A stretch of 53,965 nucleotides of DNA from Magnetococcales bacterium (lineage in GTDB: Bacteria; Pseudomonadota; Magnetococcia; Magnetococcales; Magnetaquicoccaceae), in contig JADGAY010000002.1 in the NCBI GenBank assembly GCA_015231775.1, positions 1 to 53,965 on the forward strand. Direction: 5' to 3'. Both the position numbers and the translations under genes were made by a program. The notes under the pieces were generated by a model. It saw nothing but the letters and a program-made list of their open reading frames with translations. It made no database searches and was not told where the DNA came from. Positions 3,000 to 45,869 of this stretch are shown here, piece by piece; position 1 is the first letter of the stretch; the number at the start of each line of letters is the position of its first letter.

Positions 3000-3294
3000 G
3001 ACGAAAGCCTTGCGGGATCATTTCGCAGGGCAGGCCATGGCCGGGATCTTGACGACGCCGATTGACGGGGAAGTTGACCCCAAGGTGTTGGCGTCGATGG
3101 CCTACGAGTATGCCGACGCCATGCTGGCCGAGCGTAGCAAGGCGGATGAGCAGGCCTATCAGGACCGGCTGAAACGGGGGAAGTTGAACGCGAAGAATGA
3201 ACAGGTGCGGCAGAAGGCAGCAGCCGAGGCCGCGAAACGTGAGGGGGAATCACTTACCGGAGGGAAGAAAGATGGACGCAATCAAGTCCGCTGA
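2989..3294 (+). CDS. Hypothetical early phage protein
   Basis: One hundred and one residues, overlapping the nuclease by 11 bases and the next gene by 23. The first 55 residues look helical; the C-terminal half is Lys/Ala/Glu-rich and probably extended or coiled coil (RLKRGKLNAKNEQVRQKAAA). No domain recognised. Position suggests an accessory role in recombination. Confidence 0.55.
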   Translation: MDAETKALRDHFAGQAMAGILTTPIDGEVDPKVLASMAYEYADAMLAERSKADEQAYQDRLKRGKLNAKNEQVRQKAAAEAAKREGESLTGGKKDGRNQVR

Positions 3295-21600: not shown

Positions 21601-24600
21601 CGCTGTCTTGTCCGGCTCGCTCAGGAGACTGTTGACGATCGGGAGTAGGCGCGCCTTCAGTTCCCGATGGCTGTCTGGCGTCAAGTCCAGATCGCTCTCC
21701 TCGAGCCCCCACAGTTGCAGCTGCAGGAGGTACGGTTGACTGGGATCCATCTCGGCGCCCGCCTTCTGTAGCCACTTCCTGGCTTCCAGATTGAGCGGAT
21801 GCTGATTGATTTTCTCGAGTGGGGGCGGTGCGTGCATTGCGAACCTCCGATAACAGGGGGAGCGCTTCAAAAACATCCGCCACATTGGCGTTGATGGGCG
21901 CGACACCATCCGGCTTGATTTTATCAAAGATGAGGATTTGATTATTGTAGGTCGTGCCGTACTTCTTATAGCCCTCTCCGGAGAGGCCAATGCGCCCACG
22001 GTAGGCGTGCTTCATGCCCGCGAGCTTCTTCCATTCTTCCAGAAATTGGGCGTCTTTCCCGTCGCGGCCCTGCCCGATCAACGCCACCAGCCGGCCGCCC
22101 GGCTCGAGGCGCGCTAGGGCCTGGTCGAGATGGCGGAGCACATTGCGGCTACTGCGTTCGCCCGTCTTGCGTCCAGCCGTCGACGAGAACGGCGGGTTCA
22201 TCACAATGACGGTGGGGCGCGTCGTGTCCGGCAGGATGTTATTCAGCTGTTCGGCGTTCTCCTGATAGACCGGCCCGATGCTCAGCTGGCGCAGCACGTC
22301 GGCCCGTTGGCCATGGTACTCATTCATCACCACCCGGGCGCCCGTCACCTTGGCGAATACGGCAATGCCGCCAATCCCGGCCGATGGCTCGAGCATCGTG
22401 TCGGCACTCGTCACATGCGCGGCCCAGTTCATCACATAGGCCAAGTCGGGCGGCGTTGAGAATTGCTGGAACTCGTTTTGATCTTCCGTCCGGTTGGCCT
22501 TCTGCGTCGGGATCCGGTCGAGGATCCTGGCGCGAATGTCTTGCACGGCCAGACGCGCCTTAACCAGAGAGGCCGATCCGTCATAGGTGCCGTCCTGAAC
22601 GCCTTCCTTGATATGGTTCAGAATGAACCGATTGATGCCCAACTCCAGGGCGTCATAGGCTTCCTTTTGTGCGTACATGCCGCTGGCGCGCGTGCCGCCA
22701 AACGCCTGGTCGGCTTGCACGAAAAGCTGTGCCTCCGTGAAGGCTTCGCCATTCTTGAGCTTATCCGCTACATAGTCGGCCAGCTTGTCGGCGCCCTGAG
22801 TTTTCGCATTGGTAGCGGTCGGCTTCTCTTTGGCGGCTTCTTTGGTGTCCGGCTTGCCGATCTTCAGCACGTTGCGCCCCAGCTCGAGCAGTTCCTTGCC
22901 CTTCAGGGTTTTGGTGCGATTGACGACCAGGCGCGGGGTCTTTCCGCCGTACATATCAATGTGGAGATTGTCGAACATTCCGCCACCACGCACACCAAAC
23001 TCATCGCTGATGGCTTCCATGAGCTCCGCATCGGTCAAGCCTTTCCCGCGCCGGTTCTCCCATCGAGTCTCAGCGTTCGCAAACCCGTGAGTGGCTTTCA
23101 GGAAAGCCTTCGCAATGTCGGCGTCCGTAGGCGGCCCCGGTTCCGGCCCTTCGAGGATCTTGCCGATAACCTCAGACATGGCGGGATATTGCTGGTAGGT
23201 ATTCTTTTCCAGCTGCAGCAGTCTGTCACGGGCGGCCTCTGTTTCACCTTCCCTGATAAGGCGAATCGCGTCGTGGATTTCGGTCGCATACATCCGGCCT
23301 TCTTGCGTGCCGTTCCTTGCAAACCCGTCGGCCACTTGGCGGAGTCGCGGTAGGTCGATCTCCGTGGATTCGACGGCCTTCTCTTCCGGCTTCTGCGCCA
23401 GCTCCAGCAATCGGTTCGCATCGCGCATTGCCAGGTCGAGCATGTTATTCAACTGGAATGGGACAGGGCGAATCTTGCCGGACTGGATGCCTTCACGGAC
23501 AAACCGCAGGGCATCATTCAGCGAGACAAACCGGCCGCTCCCCAGCATCACATCGCCAGGGGCTTCCTTGTCATGGGCCAGGGCTCGCAGTTCTTGCGTG
23601 GCCTGGTTCATGCCCTGATCATTTTGCGCGAATCGATCCTCCGGCAACTTCGTCTGTTCGGCGTCCGGCTCTTGCGCGCCCTTCGAGAACAGGGGCGTTT
23701 CTGATAATGGCGCTTCCGGTCGGATAATCGGGCGCTCGCCAATGGTCGGCGGCGGCACGGCAATCTCTTGCTGCCCGGGCTTCTCTACCGTCGGCGCCTT
23801 CTTCTCCTGCAGCTTGGCCTTTTGTTCGGCAATCCGGTCTTGTTCGTCCCCGGCTGGCTGCGTGGTGTCGCCCGTCGCCAGCCAGTCCTTGAAACCCTGC
23901 ATGGTGAAGGCTTTAATTGACTGTATGCCGTTCCAGTCCTTCGCGTAATTTTCCTTATAGCGGGCCCGGGCTTCGTCGATCGAATCGTAGCCCATCATCA
24001 CTTTATGCTCGTCGAATTTGCCGTTCGCCTTCTTCTGGTCGACGACAAAGACGGGGCCGCTATAGTCGCGTGGCGTGTTCGGCTTTACAAAGACGTCTAT
24101 TTTCTCCTTGTCCGCGCCCGTGGTCCCACGGATGTAGCCATAGTGGGATTTCATGGTGACGGACCAGGGCTTGCCGTTCGGGTCTTTGCCCGATCGCGTG
24201 GAGCCTTCAGGATTCTGGATGCTGATATTCAGCCCGGCAATCCGATCGTGGCCTACCTCGTAGTTCTCGGCGTCCTTCTGCGCCTGAGTCGGCTCCTTCT
24301 TGTCATTTTTCGGCGAGGTAGCCGCTTCGTGGGCGCGGTCGTCGATGGTGGACGGGGTAGCCGCCTCAACGGATTGGGCTGGTGGTGTCGTTCCCTCTTG
24401 AGTAGGGGAGGCCGACGGGTTCGCCAAAGATGGCGTAGGCCCAGATTGAGGCGGCGTGTACCCTTCCGGTTTCGGGATCCAGGCGGGCCAGTCGCCGCGC
24501 ATGATGGCGTCAGCATCCTCTCCCCACGGAGACGTGCGAAATTCACGATCGCTCAGTAAGGCCTCTTTCACGCGCTCCACGGCGGCGCCGACGTCGACTC

Positions 24601-31837: not shown

Positions 31838-32068
31838 CTACTTCCTTTTCTGGTCCATTGCGGCGTGGCATTCCTTGATGAGTTCGCTCATCATGCCGTC
31901 AGAATAGGCCCGGTAGCCCACCAGCTCCGCCCCGTCCTTATCGAACACAGGGCTTCGCGGTAGCTCGCTACTTTGCAGCACCTTCGTGCCGCAGCCGGTC
32001 ACGGACACGATGCAGCTCAAGAGCCACATCCTCATCACTCCCGGCCATCGATAGGCCGATTTGCGCAT
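31838..32068 (-). CDS. Small lipoprotein, possible outer-membrane spanin
   Basis: Seventy-six residues. An N-terminal basic stretch and WLLSCIVSVTGC form a lipoprotein signal with VTGC as lipobox; Cys26 would be acylated. The mature part is about 50 polar residues. It overlaps the upstream small membrane gene by 101 bases in a different frame, the arrangement typical of Rz/Rz1 spanin pairs, and sits in the lysis region. It lacks the Pro-rich feature of many Rz1 proteins. Confidence 0.45.
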   Translation of the reverse strand: MRKSAYRWPGVMRMWLLSCIVSVTGCGTKVLQSSELPRSPVFDKDGAELVGYRAYSDGMMSELIKECHAAMDQKRK

Positions 32069-32897: not shown

Positions 32898-33341
32898 TCA
32901 TGCCTTCGACTTGAGCGCCATGAGTTCCAGGCTATAGAAATGGAAGGCGCCGACGGTCCCGAGAAACTTGTCGGGATGCTTGGCCGCCCACCAGGGCGCC
33001 GGGATACTCTCGTCAAAATAGTGGTCAGCACCCGGCAGTATGGGAATCAGGCGCCCATCGGCGGCGCCGTCGACAAGATCCATGCAATCCAGAAACGACG
33101 GGTCGCCACAGGTCGGCCAGCGCCGCAAATTCGGGTCGTTCGTCTTGGTGTTCATGGACGTGAATTGTTCCGGCTTCGTGCAGACGTCGATGAGGTTCTT
33201 GCCCCACCATCGGGGATGGTTCGCCCGGTTCTTGATCACAAGGGCGACTTCAGCCTTGGCCTCAAACGACTGGTTGCTGGCTTCGCGCCAGACCGTGAGG
33301 GCCCAGACGAAACGCTCGTAGCGCTCCCACCTGGACATCAT
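32898..33341 (-). CDS. Endolysin, SleB-type cell wall hydrolase
   Basis: One hundred and forty-seven residues. ALTVWREASNQSFEAKAEVA with catalytic-type E20, then LVIKNRANHPRW and CTKPEQFTSMN, are the signature of the Hydrolase_2/SleB family of peptidoglycan-cleaving enzymes (lytic transglycosylase-like). No signal peptide, so a holin is needed for release. Its start overlaps the stop of the tail gene (TGATG). A 78-base gap without a gene separates it from the next ORF. Confidence 0.8.
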   Translation of the reverse strand: MMSRWERYERFVWALTVWREASNQSFEAKAEVALVIKNRANHPRWWGKNLIDVCTKPEQFTSMNTKTNDPNLRRWPTCGDPSFLDCMDLVDGAADGRLIPILPGADHYFDESIPAPWWAAKHPDKFLGTVGAFHFYSLELMALKSKA

Positions 33342-35365
33342 CGTGTCACCACCAGCTGTCGCGGAGGTTTCGGGCAGGTATAGACCACCGGCAGCGCCAA
33401 TCCGTTCGGTTTACTGCAAATCACGGGCACATCCAGAATCGTGCCCTGCGTGGTCACGGTTGCGATATTGCTGATGTTGCCATACACGGCGTCGACATCG
33501 ATTGTCCCCTTATAAGGGACCAGCTGAATGTCGTATTGCGTGCCCACAGTCAGCCCGGTCACGGTGCAGGTCACGACCGTATTGATGGCGGCCGGCGCAT
33601 AGGGGGTCGAACAGGTTCCGCTAGCCACAGACGACGCATCGCCCCAGGAAATAACACCAGTCGCAATGCGTACGTCATGCTTGGCCGCCGCTCCAGCCCC
33701 ATCGGATAGCGCGGTAAACGTCACCTCCACACTGGTTTGTCCGGTCGCATGCGCAACCAGATCCGTCACATCCTCGACGGCGCCACTCAGCGGGACCGTG
33801 AAATTGCCGGCACTCGTGCCGGTCCCTTCCACCGTCGTCACTTTGACCGTGCCGGTGATGGCATGCGGAGGAACGGTCGCCGTAATCGACGTGGCCGAGG
33901 CCGACGTCACGCTCGCGGCGATGTTCGAAAAGGTCACGGCATTCCCAGCGAGGGAAGGCACAAAATTCGTGCCGGAAATCACGACCGACGTGCCTGGCGC
34001 TCCACTCGTAGGGGAGAATCCTGAGACGGTCGGCGCCGATCCAGAGGTAGGCGCCCAGGCAATCGACGGGTTGAGGGCGGCGCTATCGCAGCTATTACCA
34101 GCATTGGGCGTAACGATAAAATCAATGATCTGTCCCGTCGTCACAGCTTGCGAGACGTTGTACGGGTAGGCGTTCGCATCCGCCGTGCCGATCGCCTGAG
34201 AAAAGAGCGTCGTTGAGCCGTTGTATTTCACCTCGAATGTGACGCCATCGCCACAGGCGAGATCGTACCGTTGCGCCGTGCCGGTAATGGTCGCGGTCCC
34301 GCCTTCTGGCGCCGTCCATCGGAGGACGGTGCCGTTTGAGGTACCAGGATGAAACCCGTTCGACCAGATGCCTTGGTACGACTGAATGCCGTTCCAGATG
34401 GTGCCTGCGACGCTATAGGTCAGCAGGTTCCCAGCCGTATCCCGGTAGCTCCATTGGCTCGAGCCTTGCGTCCCTGAAAACTGGGACTGGTAGACATAAT
34501 CACCAGACGACGGCGGAGGAGGTGGCGGCGAGGGCGGTGGAGGCGGCGGAGACGTGCCTCCCGTGGACGTGCAGCCAGCCGGACAGTTGGGGATAGAAAC
34601 GTGCAGATGGTCAATGTAGTGGCTCCATGGCGTCGTGACCGTGAAGTTGGGAGTCCCGTCCCACGTTTCAGCCCACACCCACTCATTGAGGCCAAGGCAG
34701 GCATAATTCAGGTTGGTGTAATTCCCAACCAGCACACCATTGATCCACCAGCGAACAATGCCGTCCCGTGAGGTGCAGGTCGTGCTTTTCTTGATGTATG
34801 CCTCGAGTTTCGTCCAGGTCCCCACCACCAAGCTTGGTCCGCCAGAGTTCGGGAAGCAGGCCAGGCCCATATCCAGAGAGCACACATGGCTATTATCCAG
34901 CCCTCCGCCCGTATTGTGCGCGAAGATCATCGGCCCTGTGCCGGCACTCAAGGCATCATTGCCGAAGAGGAAGACCCCGTTACTGCCTGGCCCGCGCATG
35001 AAAAAGGTCTTGTTCCCCTGCGGGCGCCCCTCGAATCCGGCATTGGTGCGCCAGATGAGCCCCACGTACATCTCGTTATACGTGGTGCCTCCGGGACCGA
35101 TCACATAATTGAGCTGCATGCCTCCGGAGTTCTGCCCGGCCTGAATCGTCGACCGAACAACGCCGGACGGGGACACGGTGGCTGTGGCATCCGAATCGCG
35201 AAGGCTGCTCGAATACGCGTCCAGGATGCCGCAAGCGCCTGGCGTGCTCGAGAAATTACAGTCGAGCACTTGACTTGCGCCTGCCGGCTCATTCGTCCAT
35301 TGCGCCCAGCTTGCCGACGGCAGGAGCAGGGCGACGAGGAGCGCTATCTTTCCGAAGAGATTCAT
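33338..35365 (-). CDS. Exported multidomain protein: LamG-like, Pro linker, TIG and FN3 domains
   Basis: Six hundred and seventy-five residues. A signal peptide (LFGKIALLVALLLPSASWAQ) is followed by a jelly-roll/LamG-like domain (about 25-265), a polyproline linker (PPPPPPSPPPPPPSSG), a second carbohydrate-binding-like domain (about 290-440), an IPT/TIG domain (GFSPTSGAPGTSVVISGTNF) and an FN3-like domain (about 540-645). The 14 Cys residues are an even number, as expected for disulfides outside the cytoplasm. Adhesion or glycan binding is likely. Signal peptides are unusual for tail proteins. Confidence 0.7.
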   Translation of the reverse strand: MNLFGKIALLVALLLPSASWAQWTNEPAGASQVLDCNFSSTPGACGILDAYSSSLRDSDATATVSPSGVVRSTIQAGQNSGGMQLNYVIGPGGTTYNEMYVGLIWRTNAGFEGRPQGNKTFFMRGPGSNGVFLFGNDALSAGTGPMIFAHNTGGGLDNSHVCSLDMGLACFPNSGGPSLVVGTWTKLEAYIKKSTTCTSRDGIVRWWINGVLVGNYTNLNYACLGLNEWVWAETWDGTPNFTVTTPWSHYIDHLHVSIPNCPAGCTSTGGTSPPPPPPSPPPPPPSSGDYVYQSQFSGTQGSSQWSYRDTAGNLLTYSVAGTIWNGIQSYQGIWSNGFHPGTSNGTVLRWTAPEGGTATITGTAQRYDLACGDGVTFEVKYNGSTTLFSQAIGTADANAYPYNVSQAVTTGQIIDFIVTPNAGNSCDSAALNPSIAWAPTSGSAPTVSGFSPTSGAPGTSVVISGTNFVPSLAGNAVTFSNIAASVTSASATSITATVPPHAITGTVKVTTVEGTGTSAGNFTVPLSGAVEDVTDLVAHATGQTSVEVTFTALSDGAGAAAKHDVRIATGVISWGDASSVASGTCSTPYAPAAINTVVTCTVTGLTVGTQYDIQLVPYKGTIDVDAVYGNISNIATVTTQGTILDVPVICSKPNGLALPVVYTCPKPPRQLVVTR

Positions 35366-35931
35366 GGGTTCACCTTTCCAATCGCATCATCAAGGGCTTT
35401 CATGCAGGCCGTGTGCGCCAGCTTGCCCTTGAGGCAGGTTGCGAGTCCGGATTTCAGCGCATCCCTCAACGTCACGGCCGGCACGGGAGGCACAGGAGGA
35501 ACAGGAGGCAGCACAACGGGCGGCGGTACGACCGGAGGCGGCACAATCGGAGGAATTTGCGCGTTGCTCTCGTGCGGAGACGCAGGCAGCGGGTGTTCTG
35601 ACTGCCCGCCAGGGTTGCCGATAGGAGACACGGGAATCGTGATCCAGGCTTCCGGGCTAGGCGTCGAATAGTGTCCGGAGTCATTGCCAGAAAAGACGCG
35701 GTAGCGCTTGCGGCCAGGCGTCAGGTAGCGCGCGTCGGGGTACTGAATGGATTCGCAGCCGTCGATATGCTCGATCGTGGCGACCACGCCCCAGGCATAG
35801 GACGGTTCAGCGGCATACTCCACTCGATAGTCCTTCATGTCGGATTCGACATTGCAGGGCCATTCGAGCGTCACGGCCTGCGCCGGGATCGCCGCCAGAA
35901 CGAAAAGGAACAGGATCGCCAAGAGGATCAT
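35362..35931 (-). CDS. Exported FN3-like protein with Pro-rich stalk
   Basis: One hundred and eighty-nine residues. ILLAILFLFVLAAIPAQA is a signal peptide ending AQA. Residues 20-105 resemble one FN3 domain (LEWPCNVESDMKDYRVEY, YRVFSGNDSGHYS). A long Pro/Val stalk (about 125-155) leads to a C-terminal helical piece with two Cys. The mature protein has four Cys. Coupled to both neighbours by ATGA overlaps. Probably surface- or periplasm-located. Confidence 0.6.
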   Translation of the reverse strand: MILLAILFLFVLAAIPAQAVTLEWPCNVESDMKDYRVEYAAEPSYAWGVVATIEHIDGCESIQYPDARYLTPGRKRYRVFSGNDSGHYSTPSPEAWITIPVSPIGNPGGQSEHPLPASPHESNAQIPPIVPPPVVPPPVVLPPVPPVPPVPAVTLRDALKSGLATCLKGKLAHTACMKALDDAIGKVNP

Positions 35932-36698
35932 CGCCCCACCCCCATCAGCATCAGGCCGCGCAAGTTGGGGCAGGCGTCTGGTGCGCTGCCCTCGCCGGTG
36001 CCGGTCAATGTGGCATCGTAACCGTTACCGCTGGTATCGGGCTCAGGCGAGGCAGTCCCATTCAGCACGTAGGCTGCGTCTGTGCCAGTCGGGATTGTCC
36101 CGTTGCAGGCCCAGGCAATCAGGTCTGCGTCTGTCGTCGCCGTGCCCGCGACAATCAGAGCTTTCGCAAGGCTCCCGCCGAATGGGTATTGGAGAAACCC
36201 AGCTTGCCGTCCGCCGATCACCAAGTCATGGGTGCCAGAAGGGGTTTCATTCCAGCAAAAAGTTCCATCTTCCGTAGCCGTTGCTCCTGTGCTCATCGTG
36301 TAGCGCAGTAAGTGGATCGCCGCGCTGCAGTCGGTGCCGTTAGCCCTGAACGCGATGAGGTACCATGTGCCTGCGGCAATGGCCGTGGTGGACGATCCGG
36401 TAAACGTATCAGACCCGTTGCTCTCCACTTGAAGATTGCCGCTGGTGTTGACGATACGTAACTCTGCGCCATTGCTCCCCGCCGAGGTAATGCGGGAGAG
36501 CGGGACTTGGAGCGCCCCAGTCGTGATACTGGTCGCCTTGGCGACAATTGCCATCGTGTAGAGCGCGTCGAGGCCTGCATTGGCCGTGGCTCCTGCTCGC
36601 GCCTGGTCGGTGCTGCCGTTGAATGTGCGGGAGCCAGCCGCCCAAGCCTGCGAAGAGAGCAGCATCAGCGTGAGTGCAACACTCAGTAGTCTAATCAT
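35928..36698 (-). CDS. Exported LamG/concanavalin-like protein
   Basis: Two hundred and fifty-six residues. ATG 36698 is chosen over a longer frame because it overlaps the previous stop (ATGA) and starts a clean signal peptide (IRLLSVALTLMLLSSQAWAA). The rest has the pattern of a LamG-type jelly roll (SRTFNGSTDQARAG, YTMAIVAKATS, WYLIAFRANGTDC, ALIVAGTATTDADLI), a fold that binds sugars. Four Cys in the mature part. Confidence 0.65.
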   Translation of the reverse strand: MIRLLSVALTLMLLSSQAWAAGSRTFNGSTDQARAGATANAGLDALYTMAIVAKATSITTGALQVPLSRITSAGSNGAELRIVNTSGNLQVESNGSDTFTGSSTTAIAAGTWYLIAFRANGTDCSAAIHLLRYTMSTGATATEDGTFCWNETPSGTHDLVIGGRQAGFLQYPFGGSLAKALIVAGTATTDADLIAWACNGTIPTGTDAAYVLNGTASPEPDTSGNGYDATLTGTGEGSAPDACPNLRGLMLMGVGR

Positions 36699-38020
36699 GT
36701 CGTGCTGGCCGCTTGGATGCACACGATGAATCCATCGTGGCGTCCGCTGGCGCTCCCCCAATTGCTGCTAAAGTTAACGAACTTGCCATCACGCGAGATG
36801 CTAGCGAACGGACTATCGTAGTATTCGTTGAACACGCTTCGATGGTGCGCGATTCTACGCACCCGTCCGCTGCCATCGGTCGCGACTTGCATAATCTCGT
36901 TGTCGAAGGCGTTGGTCACGCCGCTCCCGCTCGTATGGTAGCGAGAGGCGAGCGCCCACAGGTCATTACTGGCTTGCATGCTGAAATGATCTTGCTGGCT
37001 GCTATAGCTCCATGGCGTGGTCATGCCTGGTAACAGGTCCGTGATCGTTGTGGGGGCCGCGCATGTGCGATACCCAAGACTGGTGTTGGCGGGCCTGTGA
37101 GTGAAAATCCCGCCATTGGTAAACCCGCACTTGCCCGCGTCGCGGTGATTAAACCCGTTGTTGCCGGTGAGGTCGGTGCCAACCTGCGTCGCCGTGGCCA
37201 GCGTCCAGACCTCTGCGGTGCCGCCCGCGTACATGATGAGGCCGTATGTGCCGCTCTTATCAACCGCCACTTCATCGAGACTAGTCACATTGGCGGATGA
37301 CATCAGCACGGTGTCGGTACTACGCTTCCAAAATACGTAGCCTGACCCAGACGGGGTGCCTCCCTGAAAGAGCATCCCAAACACGTCAGCATCGTCGCTC
37401 ATGCTCATCTGCGTCACGTAGCCGCCAGAGTGCCCGAGGCCAGTAAACGTCTTGAGCGTGCTGCTGGTGCCTGCTGGCACAGTGATTTCGTAGAGGTTAT
37501 AGTTGCCAACTCCATAGATAATGTCTGGGTCCGTGGCGCTCCACGTCATCCCATATTCTTGGAGGCCCGCAGGAGAACTACTTAGCAGGTAGCCAGTCGT
37601 GTTGACCGTACAAGAGCCAGGCGTGAAATCGTAGAACCGCGCCCGCTGGTAACTGGAATGCACCAGGAAGAGCACGCGAGAATTGTCGCTATTGAAGGCT
37701 TGCTGGGTGCTGTAGCTATTGAGCACACCCTTGTGCCCGCCCGTGTCAGGCTCCGTCGTGGCGTCGGTCACGCGGAGGATGGTCGTCCCAAAGGTCGGAT
37801 CTTCGATTGTAGACCCAGCCGCGCCGAGTGTCGGCAACGTCGGCTCGGTGTGGACGTTGGTGTCAGTCAGGAGGGTTTCAACAAATCCACCCTCACCAAT
37901 TGCGGCAGGCGTTGCGAACCCGCCACTTAATGTTATATCCAGGCGTCCACCCAGACCATATACGTAGGCTGGCAGACCCAGCATAGCCACGAACAGCGCG
38001 AGACTTCGATAACGTGTCAT
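36695..38020 (-). CDS. Exported beta-propeller-like protein
   Basis: Four hundred and forty-one residues from ATG 38020, in ATGA overlap with the upstream stop and followed by a signal peptide (YRSLALFVAMLGLPAYVYG). Repeated blades can be read: NSDNSRVLFLV, MTWSATDPDIIYGVG, MSMSDDADVFGMLF, VAVDKSGTYGLIMYAG and SISRDGKFVNFSSNWG, each with the D-G/T-x-x strand pattern of propellers. Four mature Cys. Possible glycan or protein binder; enzyme activity not evident. Confidence 0.65.
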   Translation of the reverse strand: MTRYRSLALFVAMLGLPAYVYGLGGRLDITLSGGFATPAAIGEGGFVETLLTDTNVHTEPTLPTLGAAGSTIEDPTFGTTILRVTDATTEPDTGGHKGVLNSYSTQQAFNSDNSRVLFLVHSSYQRARFYDFTPGSCTVNTTGYLLSSSPAGLQEYGMTWSATDPDIIYGVGNYNLYEITVPAGTSSTLKTFTGLGHSGGYVTQMSMSDDADVFGMLFQGGTPSGSGYVFWKRSTDTVLMSSANVTSLDEVAVDKSGTYGLIMYAGGTAEVWTLATATQVGTDLTGNNGFNHRDAGKCGFTNGGIFTHRPANTSLGYRTCAAPTTITDLLPGMTTPWSYSSQQDHFSMQASNDLWALASRYHTSGSGVTNAFDNEIMQVATDGSGRVRRIAHHRSVFNEYYDSPFASISRDGKFVNFSSNWGSASGRHDGFIVCIQAASTT

Positions 38021-38808
38021 AGCGTCGACTTGAATCCCACGGCAGAAATTGTCACGGTTGAGGCCGCTGCCGATGGGTCTGCGGCAAAGATCGTATTGGC
38101 CGATGTGCACAGTGGCACAGCTAGTGGGATGACACCACCACCCATGTTTGCAGCAGCGGGAATGGTCATCAGCACAGAACCCGCCGTGCCGTCTCGAATG
38201 TCCACGGTCACGTTGGTGGCGCTGGAATTACTGACCACGATGGTAGTCGCACAAAACCGTGTGCTCGCCCCTTGTGCCGCCACAACAGATGTAGAAGAGC
38301 CATCGGTAATGCCAGCGACACCAGACACGCGATTCGTCAATTGCGCGTGAGGGCGAACCGTCTGAATACCATCCGTATCCGCCGTGGCCTTGGTCATGCG
38401 ATCCCAGTTAGAACTGGCGCTGTCCCATACTTTCGGGTAGGTCGCGATCTTACTCAACGTCGGGTTGGACTCGTCATCCGCCATCGCAGCGGTTGATGCC
38501 AGCTTGGTATTCAATGCGTCGAGCAGCGAGGTCAGCAAACGGAGCTTGGCTGACACCGTGCCGGTACTGCCAGCCGTGGCCGCAGCGTCCGTGGTCGCCC
38601 CAAGTGCAACGTCTGCCCCATCGGCAATAGTGCCGCCGCCACCTCCACCGCCGCAGGCCTCGAAGGCCGTTCCGGCTGTATTGACGCAGCGAATCGCTAC
38701 CGCATTGGGCGTGGCGCCCGTCGGCCATGAACCCGCCAGCCCTTCGCTTGCGCACAGCAGGGCGAGGAGGAGTAGGCTACCCGTAATAGATAAAATGGAT
38801 TTCGCCAT
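38017..38808 (-). CDS. Exported protein of unknown function
   Basis: Two hundred and sixty-three residues. Signal peptide (ILSITGSLLLLALLCASEGL) cut near AGS. A poly-Gly run (GGGGGGG) after the first 30 mature residues may be a hinge. The C-terminal half is a beta-rich domain (STSVVAAQGASTRFCATTIV, VTVDIRDGTAGSVLMTIPA) like domains of phage baseplate or neck fibres that sense conserved sugars. Four mature Cys. It overlaps the gene before it by 32 bases. Confidence 0.55.
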   Translation of the reverse strand: MAKSILSITGSLLLLALLCASEGLAGSWPTGATPNAVAIRCVNTAGTAFEACGGGGGGGTIADGADVALGATTDAAATAGSTGTVSAKLRLLTSLLDALNTKLASTAAMADDESNPTLSKIATYPKVWDSASSNWDRMTKATADTDGIQTVRPHAQLTNRVSGVAGITDGSSTSVVAAQGASTRFCATTIVVSNSSATNVTVDIRDGTAGSVLMTIPAAANMGGGVIPLAVPLCTSANTIFAADPSAAASTVTISAVGFKSTL

Positions 38809-39082
38809 CGACCGAGCCCTCCCTAATGAACCGCACCCGATTCAACTCCGCCACCGACATATAGTTTTCGTAGCCGTCACCAATCGGCACCCCAAAGACG
38901 GTCGTGGGATCCTCGCCGTGCTTGGTCATGCGCACCAGCCCGCCCCGGAAAAAGACCTCCGCCATCCGCGTGCCGGGCGGCACGGTCGGCACGCGCACGG
39001 TGCCGTCGACGGTCAAGGCCTGGTAGGCGAGCGGCTTGTAATACCTGGAAGGATCCGCGCTACTCTGTGGTTGAACAATCAT
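38777..39082 (-). CDS. Small virion-type protein, not exported
   Basis: One hundred and one residues with no signal peptide. Two segments stand out: YYKPLAYQALTVDGTVRVPT and VPPGTRMAEVFFRGGLVRMT, beta strands typical of small head or tail-surface proteins, and a C-terminal GEIHFIYYG. Both ends overlap neighbours (ATGA upstream). Function unknown. Confidence 0.5.
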   Translation of the reverse strand: MIVQPQSSADPSRYYKPLAYQALTVDGTVRVPTVPPGTRMAEVFFRGGLVRMTKHGEDPTTVFGVPIGDGYENYMSVAELNRVRFIREGSVDGEIHFIYYG

Positions 39083-39249
39083 CCGTGCAGCTCCATATGG
39101 CGCTGAAGCGCGCCCTTCCGTTGTGGCGCTAGCGTGCGTGGACGCGGAGTGAGGCGCCTCTCGAGCGAGGCCGTTGCCATGGTGACAAGCAGCACCCCCA
39201 CCAGCCCGACGACGATCGCGGCGAGAGTGAGGATCCAGCCGACTATCAC
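39079..39249 (-). CDS. Small membrane protein
   Basis: Fifty-six residues from GTG 39249, in a GTGA overlap with the gene before and an ATGA overlap with the gene after. An N-terminal span (ILTLAAIVVGLVGVLLVTMA) is followed by a basic tail (ERRLTPRPRTLAPQRKGALQ). It would sit in the inner membrane with a cytoplasmic tail. Its overlaps at both ends are strong signs of translation. Function unknown. Confidence 0.55.
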   Translation of the reverse strand: MIVGWILTLAAIVVGLVGVLLVTMATASLERRLTPRPRTLAPQRKGALQRHMELHG

Positions 39250-39521
39250 GGCTTCACTTCTTCCTTGGGTTTCAGGGCGGCCAGTTCGTCGGACAACTTT
39301 TTGTTCTGGGCCGACAACTTTTCCGCCAACGCGCTCAATTCACGATTCCCTCGAATCGCTTGAGCGAGACGCAGTTCCGTCTGTTCGCGCGATTGCGAGA
39401 CAAGCGCGGCATGGGTATTGGCTTCGTCGAGCTGTGCCGGGCAGGACGGCTCCGCAGCCAACAGGACCGATGGAACCAGCGTCAGGAGGGAGAGGGCGAG
39501 GAGTGTTCGAATCGAACGCAT
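39246..39521 (-). CDS. Exported coiled-coil protein
   Basis: Ninety-one residues. Signal peptide (RSIRTLLALSLLTLVPSVLL, AAE cut) followed by a coiled coil (EQTELRLAQAIRGNRELSAL, KLSAQNKKLSDELAALK) ending in Lys/Glu. A periplasmic coiled coil recalls i-spanins, but there is no membrane anchor if cleaved. Its GGAGG ribosome site lies within the perfect palindrome GGAGGCCTCC at 39522-39531, right before the ATG. Confidence 0.6.
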   Translation of the reverse strand: MRSIRTLLALSLLTLVPSVLLAAEPSCPAQLDEANTHAALVSQSREQTELRLAQAIRGNRELSALAEKLSAQNKKLSDELAALKPKEEVKP

Positions 39522-39657
39522 GGAGGCCTCCGATAACGTGACGTGTGAAGGGTGGCCCCCTTGCGAGGGCCACCAGACTCAGACCAGTAATGAAAGCCTA
39601 TGATCCACTAAGCGCATTTGTTGGTATATATGCGCCTAATGTGGGGAGGAAATATTT
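39522..39657 (-). promoter_or_regulatory. Intergenic control region: repeated motif, hairpin and palindromic ribosome site
   Basis: One hundred and thirty-six bases without a gene. TATGCGCCTAAT (39629-39640) matches the motif at 32461 exactly, and an inverted near-copy (CTAAGCGCAT, 39608-39617) lies 11 bases away. Downstream on the minus strand is an 8-bp stem GGTGGCCC/GGGCCACC (39551-39574) without a U-run on either side, so more a leader hairpin than a terminator. The last element is the palindrome over the ribosome site of the 39521 gene. Confidence 0.45.
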
Positions 39658-40197
39658 TTACTGTTTACCGATCCACGGCGGCACGGTCACGGCATTGGTA
39701 TAGGCTGTGCTCGCGCTCACAGGAACCGACTGCACGACATTCTGACTGACATTGGTCGTCGCTCGAGGCATGACGGCGCCAAGTGTCCCGGCCCCGGCCA
39801 CATAGCCCGCCATGTTCATGAGCCCAGGGCCCACGACGCGAAAGGGTGCGTCCTGCCATGTCACTCCGATCGGCTGCCAGCTTTCCAGGTGAATCTGGCT
39901 ACGGGCATCCATATTCGGGTCTGGGCAGGCGAGAAAGAACTGGCTGGGCTTGTCCTTCGAGAACCACTTGTCTGCTCGATACCACGGCCATGTTTGATCT
40001 TCGAGGTGACGGTATTCCTTCACCATCGAAATGGGGCATTGGTTCGGCAGGACCTTCGGGGTGTCCCGCATGAACTCAATTTCAAAATTCGTCCAGGAGA
40101 CGCCCGTGCCGCCAACCTGTTGGAACTTCTGTTTCGCCGCACATCCGGTACACAGCACCAGCATACCCAGCCCTAATGCGAGAGACTTCAGTTGCAT
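39658..40197 (-). CDS. Lipoprotein of the late operon
   Basis: One hundred and seventy-nine residues from ATG 40197, chosen because AAGGAGGATCT precedes it and a lipoprotein signal starts there (LKSLALGLGMLVLCTGCAAK; lipobox CTGC, Cys19 acylated). The mature part is a globular domain with YRHLEDQTWPWYRADKWF and LESWQPIGVTWQDAPFRVVG, then a Gly/Ala stretch and a disordered end. No family recognised. It would be anchored at the periplasmic face of a membrane. Confidence 0.6.
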   Translation of the reverse strand: MQLKSLALGLGMLVLCTGCAAKQKFQQVGGTGVSWTNFEIEFMRDTPKVLPNQCPISMVKEYRHLEDQTWPWYRADKWFSKDKPSQFFLACPDPNMDARSQIHLESWQPIGVTWQDAPFRVVGPGLMNMAGYVAGAGTLGAVMPRATTNVSQNVVQSVPVSASTAYTNAVTVPPWIGKQ

Positions 40198-40210
40198 AGA
40201 TCCTCCTTGA

Positions 40211-41854
40211 TTAACGGGCCACTCGCGACCCTGCCAGATCGCCGGCCCCATATTCATACGGCCCAATGGTTGGCCGGCCTCCCATGTAAAAACGTCGCCC
40301 TCTCGCATCACGCGCCCCCTGCGCATGCTTTCCAGCGTGGTACATGGGCGAGGTCAGCGCCACGAACAGATTCGAGGCTGGCCAGTTGGCAGTGTTGATA
40401 CTCGGCAATTGCGGGTCCACTTCCACCGTATTGGCATCCTGACTGCTGGTCGATTTCCAGTTCGCAAACGTGTACTCCGTTGCCCCCCACTTGCCCCATG
40501 TGGCCCCAGCCGTCACGCCATACGCATCATTCCAGTTCATTGAAAAGCCAGACTGCGCCGAGGCATCCACATTGATGACCTTGGAGACCGTATGAAAAAT
40601 GTTGTTCTGCACAACCCCGTTTGTGGCATTGGTGTGGAACCGTACCGCCCAGCGCCCGTTCTGCCCGTAGAAAATATTGTGCAGCACGCGAGTCCCGGCA
40701 ATGTCCTGGAGAAACATCGCATCCGTCGTATTGACCACTCCAGCCATGTTGATGAAATTGGCAGAAATCACGACACCGCTGCCGCGCGTCTTGGTGTAGA
40801 TCGGATTTCCGGCGAAGGTGCCGTACACCCAATTCCCATAAAACCTCACTTGCTCCACGTCATAGAATTGGATGGCTTGGTTTGAACTGAGTGAATCGTG
40901 TAGGCGGTTTCCGTAGATCTTTGTCCGCAAGACTTGATGGGCCCCGTCTACGCCGTGGATGGTCAACAAGCCGGAGTTTGTATCGGTCGTGCCGCCGTAG
41001 ATGTCATTATCGCGGATGATGTTATCCGCACAGGTCACGGTCGCGACGTTCTGCTGAAACACTGAAATCACCAGCGTGCCCCAGGTGTCGTAGAGCGTGC
41101 TGTTCTGGACAATGTTCCTGTTGCCGTTGATACCTGTCTCGGAGAGGATCTGCGCGGCATGGCGCCTGTGGTTGTGCGATTCCACATACTCCACGATGTT
41201 GTCACTGCCGGAGACGACAATCCCGCCGTAGGTGGTGTCATCACCACTCGTGCGGATCGTGTGCAGATTGCGAATCTTGATGAAGTCCTTCCCATTGGTG
41301 TAGACGTTTCGATGCCGCCCTGGAACCTCATACACCTTGCCATTCGTAACGATATTCGACCCGTCGCGTGCGCTCACGTAGAGCGTGGAGCCGGTAAGAT
41401 AAAAACTGCCAGGGTTGGCCTGCACCAAGGCCTGAGAGGCGCGACTGGTCAGCCGCACGCCGTCCTCCCATACCATCATGGAGCCGTTCGCGATGAGGGT
41501 GTAGGAGGTGCTGTAGGCGTACCCGCTGTCAGCCGTGAAGGCCGAGTTCGCTTTGATATCCGCCCCTGAAATGATCGGAAGTGCGCCTGATCCATACGCA
41601 TCAAATGTCACATACCCACTACTCGATCCGCTTGACGGTGCAACCAATCCCTCTCGCCACGTCTCGCCGCGAGCAAAATAGATCGTGTCTCCAGCAGAGA
41701 AACTTGATGCGTTTACTTTTGCAATCGTCTGCCATGCCTCACCAATAGAGGTGCCTGCACTCGAATCGTTCCCAGTCGTCGCATTGACATAATAGGAGGT
41801 CGCGCCAGCCACGGCGGGGAGCGCGAGAATTGCGATGAGCAGCAGCGCCAGCAT
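40211..41854 (-). CDS. Exported right-handed beta-helix (pectate-lyase-like) protein
   Basis: Five hundred and forty-seven residues. Signal peptide (LALLLIAILALPAVAGATS). The start YYVNATTGNDSSAGTS then AWQTIAKVNASSFSAGDTIY is the usual entry to a parallel beta-helix. Coils follow (GIVVSGSDNIVEYVESHNHR, NIIRDNDIYGG, VQNNIFHTVSKVINV). Such proteins are often tail spikes or polysaccharide-cleaving enzymes. Here it begins with a Sec signal and overlaps the upstream stop (TAATG). The catalytic residues could not be located. Confidence 0.7.
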   Translation of the reverse strand: MLALLLIAILALPAVAGATSYYVNATTGNDSSAGTSIGEAWQTIAKVNASSFSAGDTIYFARGETWREGLVAPSSGSSSGYVTFDAYGSGALPIISGADIKANSAFTADSGYAYSTSYTLIANGSMMVWEDGVRLTSRASQALVQANPGSFYLTGSTLYVSARDGSNIVTNGKVYEVPGRHRNVYTNGKDFIKIRNLHTIRTSGDDTTYGGIVVSGSDNIVEYVESHNHRRHAAQILSETGINGNRNIVQNSTLYDTWGTLVISVFQQNVATVTCADNIIRDNDIYGGTTDTNSGLLTIHGVDGAHQVLRTKIYGNRLHDSLSSNQAIQFYDVEQVRFYGNWVYGTFAGNPIYTKTRGSGVVISANFINMAGVVNTTDAMFLQDIAGTRVLHNIFYGQNGRWAVRFHTNATNGVVQNNIFHTVSKVINVDASAQSGFSMNWNDAYGVTAGATWGKWGATEYTFANWKSTSSQDANTVEVDPQLPSINTANWPASNLFVALTSPMYHAGKHAQGARDARGRRFYMGGRPTIGPYEYGAGDLAGSRVAR

Positions 41855-42342
41855 TAGCTAAACCTCCCACTCACTTTACAGGTGGTATTCGTGCCGGTCG
41901 TCACGCTCCACGCTCCGTTGACGGACACCCAATCGAGCGGAGGACTATCGAGAATCGCTGCGGCGCTTTGCGCCAGAAAGATCGTGAATGCGGAACCGGC
42001 TCCGTCCTTGACGGTCACAGCCCCGACAGACGCCGCCGAGGTGAAGCACTTCACCGCGTGCAGCAAGTCGCCAGCCGCCCCAGTCGCGCCCATGGCCTGA
42101 TCGGTCTGCGAGGCCGCCACATCCTCATATTCCCATTGGGACTCAATGCGCAGCGTATCGTTGCCCACATCTTCGCCCGCCATCTTCGTGGTCATATGGA
42201 ACTTGGCGGAGTCTCCGACCCCGCCAAGCTTCCTATGCCCGCCATCGCTTTGCGGCAGGCTGATTTCATCCGCGGCATAGGCCGGCACGCACCCCATCAC
42301 CAACATGAGAGCCAGGATCGCCAAGAAACCCAATCGTGACAT
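41854..42342 (-). CDS. Exported small protein
   Basis: One hundred and sixty-two residues from ATG 42342; AAGGAG lies 6-11 bases upstream, inside what a longer GTG frame would read. The signal (RLGFLAILALMLVMGCVPAY) could be cut after AYA or, less likely, treated as a lipoprotein (LVMGC). The mature part is beta-rich (KFHMTTKMAGEDVGNDTLRI, GAVTVKDGAGSAFTIFLAQ) and resembles a small virion-surface domain. Two mature Cys. Confidence 0.55.
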   Translation of the reverse strand: MSRLGFLAILALMLVMGCVPAYAADEISLPQSDGGHRKLGGVGDSAKFHMTTKMAGEDVGNDTLRIESQWEYEDVAASQTDQAMGATGAAGDLLHAVKCFTSAASVGAVTVKDGAGSAFTIFLAQSAAAILDSPPLDWVSVNGAWSVTTGTNTTCKVSGRFS

Positions 42343-42357
42343 TGCGTACTCCTTCAC

Positions 42358-43785
42358 TTAGGCCGCCTGTGCCAGCGCGGGGTTATAGTCGATCGTGCGC
42401 CACGGTCGGATATTTCTGACCTTGCACTTAATCATGGCGCGAGTGTTCGTCGCGTAGTTCGTCAGGTTCGGGACATTAAATGTCGTGCTTCCGTCTCCGG
42501 CCCCTGCGGTCGTTCCGATGCTGGCGAAGAGCGCAGAGTAGGTCGTTCGACTGACCGCAGATCCATCCGCCAGGAGCCAGCCGGACGGCGCCACCGCAGA
42601 AGATTTGTAGTAAAAGGCCACGGTCCCGGGTGGGACAATGCCGACGTTCTCGCGTGCCAGCGTCACGGCGTTTCCTGTCGGGAAGCGCACCGCCAGCACC
42701 GTGTTGCCGGAGCCGTCGTCTTGCGAGTAGAGAATCAGGCTGTTCGATGGCGGCGCCGATGGTTGAGAGATCTCCGCCATCTTGACCCCTCCGGCCAGGG
42801 CAATCCCTCCAGCCGTCAGGGAGGTCACGTCGGTGGTACCGATCGCCGCAATGCCGTCAGTCGTCACACGCATCTTCTCGCTCAAGCCTGGCGAGAAGGT
42901 CACAAGTCCGAGATTGTTGAAGTTCAGCGACCCGGCCGCCATCTGCATATAGGCGTCAGAGGTGCCATCGTTGAGGCGGATGTAGGGATTCAGGCTGCCG
43001 TCCACGCGGAAGGTGCCACCAGAGAACAGCGCCGGTCCATCCACAGCCAGCGCATAATTGTTCGTGGCTTCCGTGGGAGTGCTGGCAATCCGCACCGTTG
43101 CGGCGTTGGTGATGGTCGCACTGCCGCCCGTGATCGCAGGCGCGCTCACTTCCAGCGACGATACCCAGTCGTGCGCGCCACTTGCCGCTTCCGTGAAGGC
43201 CGGCCAAATCACCACGCCAGAGGCGTCTTGCCCGGCCTGCCCCGTGATCGCCGTGCGGATAGAGAGGGCCGAGCCCCATGATCCGCCTCCAGGCGCAAAG
43301 GTGCCACTCAGCAAGAGCTGATGCTGTCCGCTCGTTGCGGCGCCGATCGCATGGGGACCTGCACTACTCAGTGTCGCCGATCCGGTGATGGTCGGCGCGG
43401 CAATGGTCTTGTTGGATAGGCTTTCCGTCCCGGCCAGTGTGGCCAGCGTCCCGGAGGTCGGCAAGGTCACGCCCGTCGTACCGGAGAGTGACAGCGTTAG
43501 TCCGTATGCCCCGGAGATGGCAAAACTTTGCGGGATAGTGATGGTGCCCGTCGTCGTCGTCATGCCGCTACCGGAGCCGTTGATAACGACCAGCTTATTC
43601 GCATTCCCGGCCAGAGCAGGAAGCTTGTCGAATCCGGCCGTGATCGTATCCAGCTCGGCGCGCAATCCAGCCGAACTCCCGGCCGATCCTGGCGCCGGAT
43701 AGCTGCCATGCGTGTAGTATTCGTTGGCCATCGACGGCGCGACCATCCACAGGAGCATGAGCAGAGCGAGTGTTAGACGTGCCAT
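42358..43785 (-). CDS. Tail fibre with collar domain and N-terminal signal peptide
   Basis: Four hundred and seventy-five residues. An apparent signal peptide (ARLTLALLMLLWMVAPSMAN) precedes fibre-like beta repeats (SNKTIAAPTITGSATLSSAG). The C-terminus at about 395-437 is a phage collar domain (APSGWLLADGSAVSRTTYSA, FASIG, TTFNVPNL), common at the end of short tail fibres. Tail fibres are normally assembled in the cytoplasm, so the signal is unexpected. TAATG overlaps the gene before. Confidence is high for fibre, moderate for export. Confidence 0.75.
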   Translation of the reverse strand: MARLTLALLMLLWMVAPSMANEYYTHGSYPAPGSAGSSAGLRAELDTITAGFDKLPALAGNANKLVVINGSGSGMTTTTGTITIPQSFAISGAYGLTLSLSGTTGVTLPTSGTLATLAGTESLSNKTIAAPTITGSATLSSAGPHAIGAATSGQHQLLLSGTFAPGGGSWGSALSIRTAITGQAGQDASGVVIWPAFTEAASGAHDWVSSLEVSAPAITGGSATITNAATVRIASTPTEATNNYALAVDGPALFSGGTFRVDGSLNPYIRLNDGTSDAYMQMAAGSLNFNNLGLVTFSPGLSEKMRVTTDGIAAIGTTDVTSLTAGGIALAGGVKMAEISQPSAPPSNSLILYSQDDGSGNTVLAVRFPTGNAVTLARENVGIVPPGTVAFYYKSSAVAPSGWLLADGSAVSRTTYSALFASIGTTAGAGDGSTTFNVPNLTNYATNTRAMIKCKVRNIRPWRTIDYNPALAQAA

Positions 43786-45869
43786 TAGCGCAACCCCCTC
43801 CCAAATGAGTAATGGAGAATCAGCGAGTTGATGGTGAACGGGTAGATGTAATCCGTGTTCGAGGCGAACGTGACTTGGATATTCTCGGCTCGCCCCTTGA
43901 CGTCTACCTCAACGGGCGACAGCGTGCGGCCGTCCCAATAAAAGGCGTCCCAGGTGAAGCCGTCCCAATTCCCTGACCCGCCCAGCTCCGTGTCGTATTC
44001 CTCCGCCACGTCCTGCGCGATCTCCGTCGAGTTGTAGCCCAGGGTGTAGCCGAACAGGATCGCTGCATAGTGCGAACTCTGCACTTCGATGCTGCCGCGA
44101 CGATAGCGCTTGCGCGTGCGAGGAGACTTCTGATTGTTATGATTGAGGGTGATGGTGGCCTCGATGGCGTCCCCGTCGAACGAAGAACCTCGATCCAGCT
44201 CATAGACATACCCGCTGCCATACGCTCCCGCATAAGACACGTCGCTGCCGTTGGCCGATTCGCCATTCCATGCGCAATTGAACGGATGCGAGACGAGGCC
44301 AACCAGGGCCCCAATGAATTTGCCGTTGGAGATCGTCGCGTAGAGATAACTGCCGTCCGCGAAGAAGGCCCGGTACTGGCTCTTGTCCTTACTGACGCAG
44401 GAGCAGAGCGCATTCGCCTGCTTTTCCTGGATAAAGGTATGCATGTTCTGCGTGAGCGAGGCCTGGAGGAAGTTACCGAACTCTTGCGCGGCCTTGAGGC
44501 TGATAAGCCCGCGGTCGTCCAGCATGTAGCTGGAGTCCAGGTTTTGCGACATGTAGGCAATGGCGCCGGTCGACGACTTGAAGGCCACATATTTGAACGT
44601 GCTCAGGCTCGTGCCGTAGAGCATGCCGGTCCCGTTCCGAGACAGCACCGCCATGGTCGCCGTGTCGGCACTGCCGGGCTGAATCAGGAATCCCGTAATG
44701 GTGTCGCCCACCGTAATTTCGTTGCCTCCCGCCGAGGCCGTGAATTGATAGGGCTCCCCGATGCCGGAGTGCATGATGGAGCCGCCGATAGACACAAACA
44801 GGTGGAAGTGATGCACCTTGATATGCTTCGGGGTGTCGACCGTCGCGCCCGTGTTGATCGGGACCAGCGTGACGCCATCCCACTCAAAGCACCGGTTAAT
44901 ACCGTCGGCGCCGTAAATCTTGCGTGTCGAGAGCTGTCCGGAGAAATTGTTGATGTCGAACTCGAAGCGTCCACCGGGCAGCAAGACGATCGCCGTTTGC
45001 GCGCCGGATAACGTGACGTTCACGGCGCCAACCACAGCCGCACCGGCCGCCAGATTGCCAGGGGCAGGGGTCGTGACAATGAACCGTCCTGCGGCGGTTC
45101 CGGCTGCCCAGCTACCGGATTCCAGCACCACGCGCATGATCGTCGCCGTATTGGCGCCTTGCGTGAGCACGTCGCCATCGGCCGGCGTGGAGGCGCCTCC
45201 AGCCGTAAAATACACCTCGTTGAAGAAGGTCATTTGCGACCATCCGGACACCGTGGCCCTGAACATATGGCAGGCCGTGGCCCCAGCGTTGTCGCGGAAC
45301 ACATAGAGCTGATGGACCCCTCCTACCAGGTGCGACACAATGCCGCGCACCGGCCCAGATCCAGGCAACGGCTGAATCAGCGCCCGATACACATCGGCCG
45401 CGAGATTGAGGTATTGCGCGTTCAGGAGAGGCGTCAGAACGGAGGTGAGTGCCGTCGTTGTCCCAATCGTCGTTGCGCCGACCTTGACCACCTCACTAGC
45501 AGAGAAGGTGCCGACAATCTTCGTGACGGCCAGGTATTTCTCGTCGTCCTCGTCGACGATGGCGATAATCACGCCCGTAGCCAGCGACGTGTCACCGGTC
45601 AGGGTTTGCCCGACCGTCGGCGTGTTCGTGAAGGCCACCAGCTGAATAATGCCGTAGGTGGCGTCGGACGGCTTGGCCCGTCCATCGAATCGCTCATACC
45701 CACCCACACGGGCATAGCCACCGGTCACGGCACACTCGAAATTGGAGGATTCCCGGGCAAATCCGGCGGGTAAGTCCAGCGTCGGGGTGAGCTGATCCAG
45801 TCCGCCCTTAAGGCGCGTGACGTCGTACTTGATCGGCGAGGATGGCAGGGGTTTCGGCTTGCGTCCCAC
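43785..45869 (-). CDS. Large tail protein (stopper/tail-tube-like)
   Basis: Six hundred and ninety-four residues from GTG 45869, overlapping the previous stop (TAGTG); a longer frame upstream lies in the adaptor gene. Start GRKPKPLPSSPIKYDVTRLK, then LKGGLDQLTPTLDLPAGFA and ESSNFECAVTGGYARVGGYE, is a conserved phage tail pattern. A beta-rich body follows (HHFHLFVSIGGSIMHSGIGE). It sits between adaptor and fibre, so it is likely the nozzle/tail tube of a short tail. Confidence 0.55.
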   Translation of the reverse strand: MGRKPKPLPSSPIKYDVTRLKGGLDQLTPTLDLPAGFARESSNFECAVTGGYARVGGYERFDGRAKPSDATYGIIQLVAFTNTPTVGQTLTGDTSLATGVIIAIVDEDDEKYLAVTKIVGTFSASEVVKVGATTIGTTTALTSVLTPLLNAQYLNLAADVYRALIQPLPGSGPVRGIVSHLVGGVHQLYVFRDNAGATACHMFRATVSGWSQMTFFNEVYFTAGGASTPADGDVLTQGANTATIMRVVLESGSWAAGTAAGRFIVTTPAPGNLAAGAAVVGAVNVTLSGAQTAIVLLPGGRFEFDINNFSGQLSTRKIYGADGINRCFEWDGVTLVPINTGATVDTPKHIKVHHFHLFVSIGGSIMHSGIGEPYQFTASAGGNEITVGDTITGFLIQPGSADTATMAVLSRNGTGMLYGTSLSTFKYVAFKSSTGAIAYMSQNLDSSYMLDDRGLISLKAAQEFGNFLQASLTQNMHTFIQEKQANALCSCVSKDKSQYRAFFADGSYLYATISNGKFIGALVGLVSHPFNCAWNGESANGSDVSYAGAYGSGYVYELDRGSSFDGDAIEATITLNHNNQKSPRTRKRYRRGSIEVQSSHYAAILFGYTLGYNSTEIAQDVAEEYDTELGGSGNWDGFTWDAFYWDGRTLSPVEVDVKGRAENIQVTFASNTDYIYPFTINSLILHYSFGRGLR

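Follow-up and report, generated by a model that had tools for sequence, protein, structure and literature searches.

A tail fibre gene and neighbouring genes with predicted Sec signal peptides behind the tail hub gene of a phage contig in a Magnetococcales assembly

The stretch of 53,965 nucleotides analysed here (the window; contig JADGAY010000002.1 of a Magnetococcales bacterium, assembly GCA_015231775.1, our contig C374 within a bin of 3.8 Mb and 389 contigs) carries on its minus strand a late series of phage genes that includes a portal/adaptor-type protein, the major head protein, an SU10-type adaptor (Pfam 7.8e-14) and a gp10-like tail hub. Downstream (3') of the hub gene on this strand lies an island of genes whose products mostly begin with a predicted signal peptide (SP), followed by a cell-wall-hydrolase lysin, further genes and the gene of a 4815-residue polyvalent protein. 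The first gene of the island encodes a tail fibre, S1, and the possible export of this fibre and its neighbours is our subject. The genes are listed below, with loci of related phages given as L numbers and all SPs being predictions:

43785..45869, minus strand: gp10-like tail hub/stabilisation protein, no SP; ends on the base with which the fibre gene starts.
42358..43785, minus strand: S1, tail fibre with C-terminal Collar domain (Pfam 2e-16); residues 1-20 form the SP, immediately followed by the conserved N-terminal domain (NEYYTHGSYP).
41854..42342, minus strand: S2, exported protein, SP; first 47 residues similar to L075:13521-13994.
40211..41854, minus strand: S3, exported, hydrolase-like PHROG (phrog_16653, 1.3e-8); N-terminal 86 residues similar to L150:1523-2947.
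39658..40197, minus strand: S4, exported, probable lipoprotein, SP.
39246..39521, minus strand: S5, small exported protein, 57% identical to its L075 counterpart over 63 residues.
39079..39249, minus strand: hydrophobic open reading frame of 56 residues, absent from the initial annotation; fails the strict SP rule for want of a charged residue before the core.
38777..39082, minus strand: n101, conserved 101-residue protein without SP, 46% identical to L150:71-379.
38017..38808, minus strand: S6, exported, SP; four cysteines in the mature part.
36695..38020, minus strand: S7, exported, SP; four cysteines.
35928..36698, minus strand: S8, exported, LamG/ConA-like (below cut-off), SP; four cysteines.
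35362..35931, minus strand: S9, exported, SP; four cysteines; residues 153-188 similar to the C-terminus of L150:4137-4604.
33338..35365, minus strand: S10, exported, TIG and weak FN3 domains, SP; 14 cysteines in the mature part.
32898..33341, minus strand: lysin (cell wall hydrolase) without SP, Pfam Hydrolase_2 3.6e-11; overlaps S10 by 4 bases.

SPs were called throughout by a rule that combines n-region charge, nine uncharged hydrophobic residues and a cleavage or lipobox motif. Applied to a 49-kb stretch of E. coli K-12, its strict form recognised 9/9 exported, 0/28 cytoplasmic and 3/11 membrane proteins; a looser form had made 3/28 false calls on E. coli and the strict thresholds were set afterwards, so that 0/28 is not an independent test. 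The strict rule called an SP in 10 of the 12 island genes, compared with 1/20 other late genes (Fisher p = 1e-5) and 0/19 left-arm (early) genes. All twelve minus-strand genes of the initial annotation are open reading frames at the coordinates given there, and the ten that it had named as bearing an export signal are exactly those called here, the two without being the genes that start at 39082 and 33341. When every open reading frame of at least 60 residues was scanned with any start in its first 60 codons allowed, an SP was found in 5/165 plus-strand and 15/139 minus-strand frames, the latter counting the island. Among the mature parts, the most hydrophobic segment of 19 residues averages 1.48 on the Kyte-Doolittle scale, and thus no second membrane span is evident. 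Sec export of the island proteins is, at the level of sequence, a well-supported prediction.

The lipoboxes that had also been noted held up in part: S4 (the 40197 gene), whose lipobox is imperfect, may plausibly be a lipoprotein, whereas the match in S2 (the 42342 gene) is doubtful. The L075 counterpart of S2, which resembles it over residues 1-47, lacks a cysteine at the lipobox site and keeps the signal-peptidase-I site. At the position corresponding to S4, L075 encodes an exported lipoprotein without BLAST similarity to it. The sole strict SP among the 20 other late genes belongs to a 76-residue lipobox protein of the lysis region (31838-32068, minus strand), Rz1/spanin-like by position.

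Relatives were gathered by similarity to the hub or to the major head protein, with the best 80 of at least 581 kept, and a further search with the N-termini of SP-bearing fibres, for which 80 matches were listed, added L158, L178, L183 and L222. The hub matched 126 loci, of which those with a match ending before residue 640, no start codon near the end, or a hub frame of less than 600 residues were set aside; this left 115 loci and the window, or 84 after collapse at 97% identity. Gene counts in relatives rest on gene callers made for this analysis. S1 is the first gene after the hub, and alignments of SP-bearing and SP-less orthologues place the conserved N-terminal domain in it; where this domain is present, the gene behind the hub in relatives mostly begins M-x-N-x-YYNHG, which is the fibre start. 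In the window, L050, L075, L087, L088, L063, L092 and L013 (identical to L093) an SP stands directly before the domain. Among 111 distinct fibre N-domains, counted only where they fit a motif pattern, 12 have an SP directly before them, 90 a close ATG and no SP, and 9 neither; 12/111 is not a frequency in nature because the searches centred on the window.

Between the predicted cleavage site and the YY pair lie 2 residues in five SP fibres, 3 residues in four others, and 1 and 4 residues in one fibre each; in the twelfth, L178, the site was scored at an internal cysteine 11 residues away. In the 90 SP-less fibres YY follows Met after 2-4 residues (3 in 81/90), so that the mature SP fibre would start almost where its SP-less cousin starts. 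An upstream in-frame start yielded a strict SP in none (0/59) of the SP-less fibres. The SPs themselves are 21% identical (21 pairs) versus 69% for N-domain columns 1-51, a pattern that selection for export, and not for a particular sequence, would be expected to produce. A single match to S1 occurs in each of seven SP-fibre records (three of 60-64 kb and four fragments below 30 kb); a phage collection gave 18 records, all matching within residues 288-459 and none in the N-domain. The initial annotation had raised the possibility of virion parts attached outside the membrane, and this is favoured in that S1 is the orthologue of ordinary fibres with an SP placed before the N-domain, the virion location itself staying presumptive.

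On a tree of 79 hub proteins (quick search, SH-aLRT, no bootstrap; L008, L058, L060, L073 and L105 left out) the fibre SP is clustered, the eight SP phages needing four changes, of which branches with good support force at least three. The SP-less L081 is nested next to L087, L063 and L092; L093 falls in another part of the tree. The fibre SP appears to have been gained or lost at least three times, gains being indistinguishable from losses.

Predicted export extends beyond the fibre in these phages. Within 11.5 kb after the hub, fibre excluded, the eight SP-fibre phages among the 84 have an SP on 25/54 genes, compared with 10/234 in 59 phages with an SP-less fibre and 1/83 in 17 without a recognised domain (11/317 together); upstream of the hub, in nine SP-fibre phages, the count is 4/107. 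The initial annotation had proposed searching related phage contigs for the same run of genes, and L075/L150, a single 64-kb record, indeed keeps much of the window plan: the fibre comes first, then an S2-like protein, a pair of exported proteins, an exported lipoprotein, S5, n101 (again SP-less), more exported proteins and S10, the last being 78% identical to L155 of the same record. L092/L151 has a different exported set (789, 233, 277, 464, 384 and 932 residues) and L158 another (107, 765, 251 and 316 residues); the make-up of the island changes, and the SPs persist.

Other exported proteins were noticed among these loci. Similar 178-residue proteins with four cysteines are encoded at L088:8557-9093, L178:13216-13752 and L183:11376-11912, just before or two places before a g359-like gene, in phages that have an SP fibre and no large island. 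L088 and L178 encode an exported protein (M-T-R-x-S-F-V...LPALA) upstream of the hub gene. A small exported protein that carries MMVARNGD or TMVARRGGD together with a DAPC motif (L013:18973-19311 and L041:13225-13536; also L043, L045 and L046) occurs in one phage with an SP fibre and in others without. Between S9 and L150:4137-4604, and between S2 and L075:13521-13994, BLAST similarity is confined to one end (S9 residues 153-188, S2 residues 1-47), as in swapped modules.

Cysteine content was compared for an exported set comprising strict-SP genes of at least 90 residues after the fibre in SP-fibre phages and eight from L150 and L158, a 372-residue L150 gene with an unclear start being left out. 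These 31 proteins contain 174 cysteines in 9267 residues (1.88%) versus 322/80056 (0.40%) for 267 genes of the same region in phages that lack an SP fibre (p 3e-13). Seven SP-bearing genes of the latter phages are also cysteine-rich (23/963).

The domains read into the island at the outset fared unevenly. Collar in S1 and TIG in S10 (Pfam 3e-8) stand; LamG-like (4e-4) and FN3 (9e-5) matches were seen, both below Pfam cut-offs. The beta-helix of S3 (the 41854 gene) has no more than indirect support, from its hydrolase PHROG match and from a relative, L150:1523-2944, with a chondroitinase B match below threshold. The beta-propeller is not supported: it found no Pfam or PDB match, and the AlphaFold model of S7 alone is poor (pLDDT 30.7); that of S10 with one relative reached 33.7, both too low for a fold search. 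Viral contigs, the phage collection, the PDB and 47 further genomes from this order gave no relative of S7, and S10 matched one record in the phage collection (residues 339-435, E 2e-4) and one in viral contigs. Ten exported proteins of L075/L150, L092/L151 and L158 gave Pfam matches above cut-off in three (Gly_rich_2, Beta_helix, Laminin_G_3), weak matches only in two (Chondroitinas_B, Laminin_G_3) and none in five; an adhesive or glycan-degrading set, as had been suggested, thus receives some support from these matches, though not from the propeller.

The arrangement of the genes bears on their expression. The hub gene and S1 share one base, S2, S4, S5 and n101 are each preceded by a gap (13-163 bases), S6 overlaps the preceding gene by 32 bases, and S7, S8, S9, S10 and the lysin do so by 4 bases each. 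Because of these overlaps most of the set is likely made together, late, and the 4-base overlaps suggest that S7-S10 may be co-expressed with lysis. In a consensus scan, promoter- and terminator-like sites were not above shuffles.

We give nearly an even chance to the reading that in the island a podovirus-like phage encodes a host-recognition module exported through Sec, whose products would join virions at lysis. The proposed course is as follows. Late in infection the island proteins would be made together with the hub and the lysin; Sec would carry the precursors over the inner membrane, the SPs would be removed, and folding would take place in the periplasm, in several cases with formation of disulfides. 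Since the docking end of the fibre would become free only on loss of the SP, outside the cytoplasm, virions would acquire the fibre, along with accessory lectins or depolymerases, at lysis (or at the envelope), and host recognition would be assembled last. Docking outside the cytoplasm is a step we infer; a kept N-domain with its end would be hard to explain if the fibre never met the virion. The fuller proposal, tentative and somewhat short of an even chance, is of a secreted receptor-recognition module in which fibre and accessory lectins/depolymerases would pass through Sec, the fibre would be clipped near the SP-less N-terminus and the virion completed outside the cytoplasm, with at least three gains or losses of this arrangement.

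Several observations weigh against this proposal. The SP calls are rule-based, and 99/111 N-domains are without SP, so export is not required for such a fibre. At 43731 an in-frame ATG lies four residues before YY with a weak ribosome-binding score, which makes an SP-less S1 isoform possible in the window; only here, among eight SP fibres, is there a start codon within 8 residues of YY with a non-zero score. Before lysis, export would keep the fibre and the cytoplasmic virions apart. An SP fibre with few other exported genes is seen in L013 and in the L088/L178/L183 group. Early-gene proteins of the window phage are equally cysteine-rich (73/3787), and the cysteine contrast therefore holds against same-region genes of relatives, not the whole proteome; even cysteine counts are not clearly more common in exported proteins (22/27) than in controls (51/75). 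SP fibres are hardly enriched (13/3540 versus 94/33404 in the others; L063, one of the eight counted, has a start called too early, which adds cysteines), as might be expected if the fibre were converted from a cytoplasmic one. Finally, the hub was matched in 1/18 genomes of the family and the fibre N-terminus in 1/299 of the phylum, each time in the window's own bin; the records are metagenomic and the host is unproven.

The main rival to the host-recognition module is a set acting at the infected cell, namely exported decoys or surface-remodelling proteins that are not virion parts and that block or trim receptors and glycans, prevent re-adsorption of progeny to host or debris and exclude other phages. 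We regard it as unlikely, if still a serious competitor. The evidence for export (SP calls, downstream SP genes, cysteines) is identical for both, and LamG-like, Beta_helix and weak chondroitinase-B matches among the exported proteins, as well as the probable lipoprotein S4, would suit such a set; S1, however, occupies the fibre position of relatives, is matched only once in each of seven SP-fibre records, four being fragments, and as a pure decoy would not need the N-terminal domain and its end. Distinctly less probable is a mixed module in which S1 would be a virion fibre docked at lysis and S2-S10 free exoenzymes or adhesins opening biofilm or capsule for the progeny. S1 does have a docking-type N-domain, and several of S2-S10 have no similar gene in L075/L150 or share short stretches only, but S2 and S9 keep conserved ends with variable remainders, and docked receptor-binding proteins often combine the two.

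We consider it very improbable that the island is lysogenic-conversion cargo, a moron block expressed from a prophage to alter the host surface. Known phages carry exported morons near tail and lysis genes (lom and bor of lambda), and a PF18897 match in the left arm (9.5e-41) leaves room for site-specific recombination; on the other side, the fibre itself carries an SP, S7-S10 overlap one another and the lysin, promoter/terminator-like sites do not exceed shuffles, and no integrase was seen among the nine left-arm proteins of a non-exhaustive scan. Equally hard to credit are uncleaved anchors or hydrophobic virion tips in place of Sec signals, which the rule-based calls and the rule's firing on 3/11 E. 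coli membrane proteins would allow, since n-region, core and cleavage motif are found together, 99/111 N-domains have no SP and the passengers are cysteine-rich.

Comparison with known systems offers partial parallels to the host-recognition module. The SP-less fibres beside gp10-like hubs resemble S1 in their post-hub position, the YYNHG...SSAxxRAELDxI domain and a variable distal part; unlike S1 they have no SP before the N-domain, and in the window the neighbours of S1 are exported too. The genes lom and bor of lambda, exported morons near tail genes, are SP or lipoprotein genes in the late region as here, although they are one or two extra genes, whereas the window has a fibre and a ten-gene block. 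Exported endolysins with an SP or a signal-arrest-release (SAR) sequence are represented by Lys44 of phage fOg44, for which Sec passage during infection and a wait outside the membrane until lysis are reported (PMC6116005); there the exported protein is a lytic enzyme, whereas the window lysin (33341) has no SP and the exported proteins would serve host recognition. The esterase gp40 of Xanthomonas phage PBR31, for which its authors propose help in lysis (PMC10975493), is a single gene rather than a block. In Bdellovibrio, MAT proteins that are phage-fibre-like and bear SPs, followed by a beta-rich domain of about 130 residues, are described (PMC10769870); they are encoded and used by the predatory bacterium itself, not by a phage, and are likened to S1 by description. 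Two Bacteroides phages are reported to have SPs in 2 and 1 proteins (PMC5723332), and phage diversity-retroelement proteins to lack them (PMC6199706). A tailed phage with an exported fibre was not found in the open-licence literature searched, a scope that most subscription journals fall outside.

By the established view, tailed-phage virions reach completion within the cytoplasm. If the proposed module exists, phages would gain periplasmic folding, disulfides and envelope chaperones for their receptor-binding proteins, and before lysis docking-competent fibres would have no access to virions; a comparison of orthologues with and without SP would be a natural experiment.

The phage is presumed to be podovirus-like. 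A hub homologue in MW202426 (32% identity) is annotated as phage stabilization protein, and the same record, deposited as Myoviridae sp., is the nearest named relative of the major head protein. No terminase was found among the window proteins scanned, and the contig may be incomplete. The bin gave no 16S match; its RpoB fragment best matched PDB entry 7ye1, which we take to be Caulobacter (892 bits versus 824 for E. coli), and a pseudomonadote host is our guess from this match. The GC content of the window (0.608) agrees with that of the RpoB locus (0.611). Elsewhere in the window, the left-arm gene at 3197-4462 (plus strand) is the one that strongly matches the recombination-directionality-factor-like family Gp3-like (PF18897). 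The 4815-residue polyvalent protein (12650-27097, minus strand) combines AAA_34 and Strawberry-notch helicase, inorganic pyrophosphatase and LPD38 domains with a weak ADP-ribosyltransferase match, and contains zero cysteines.

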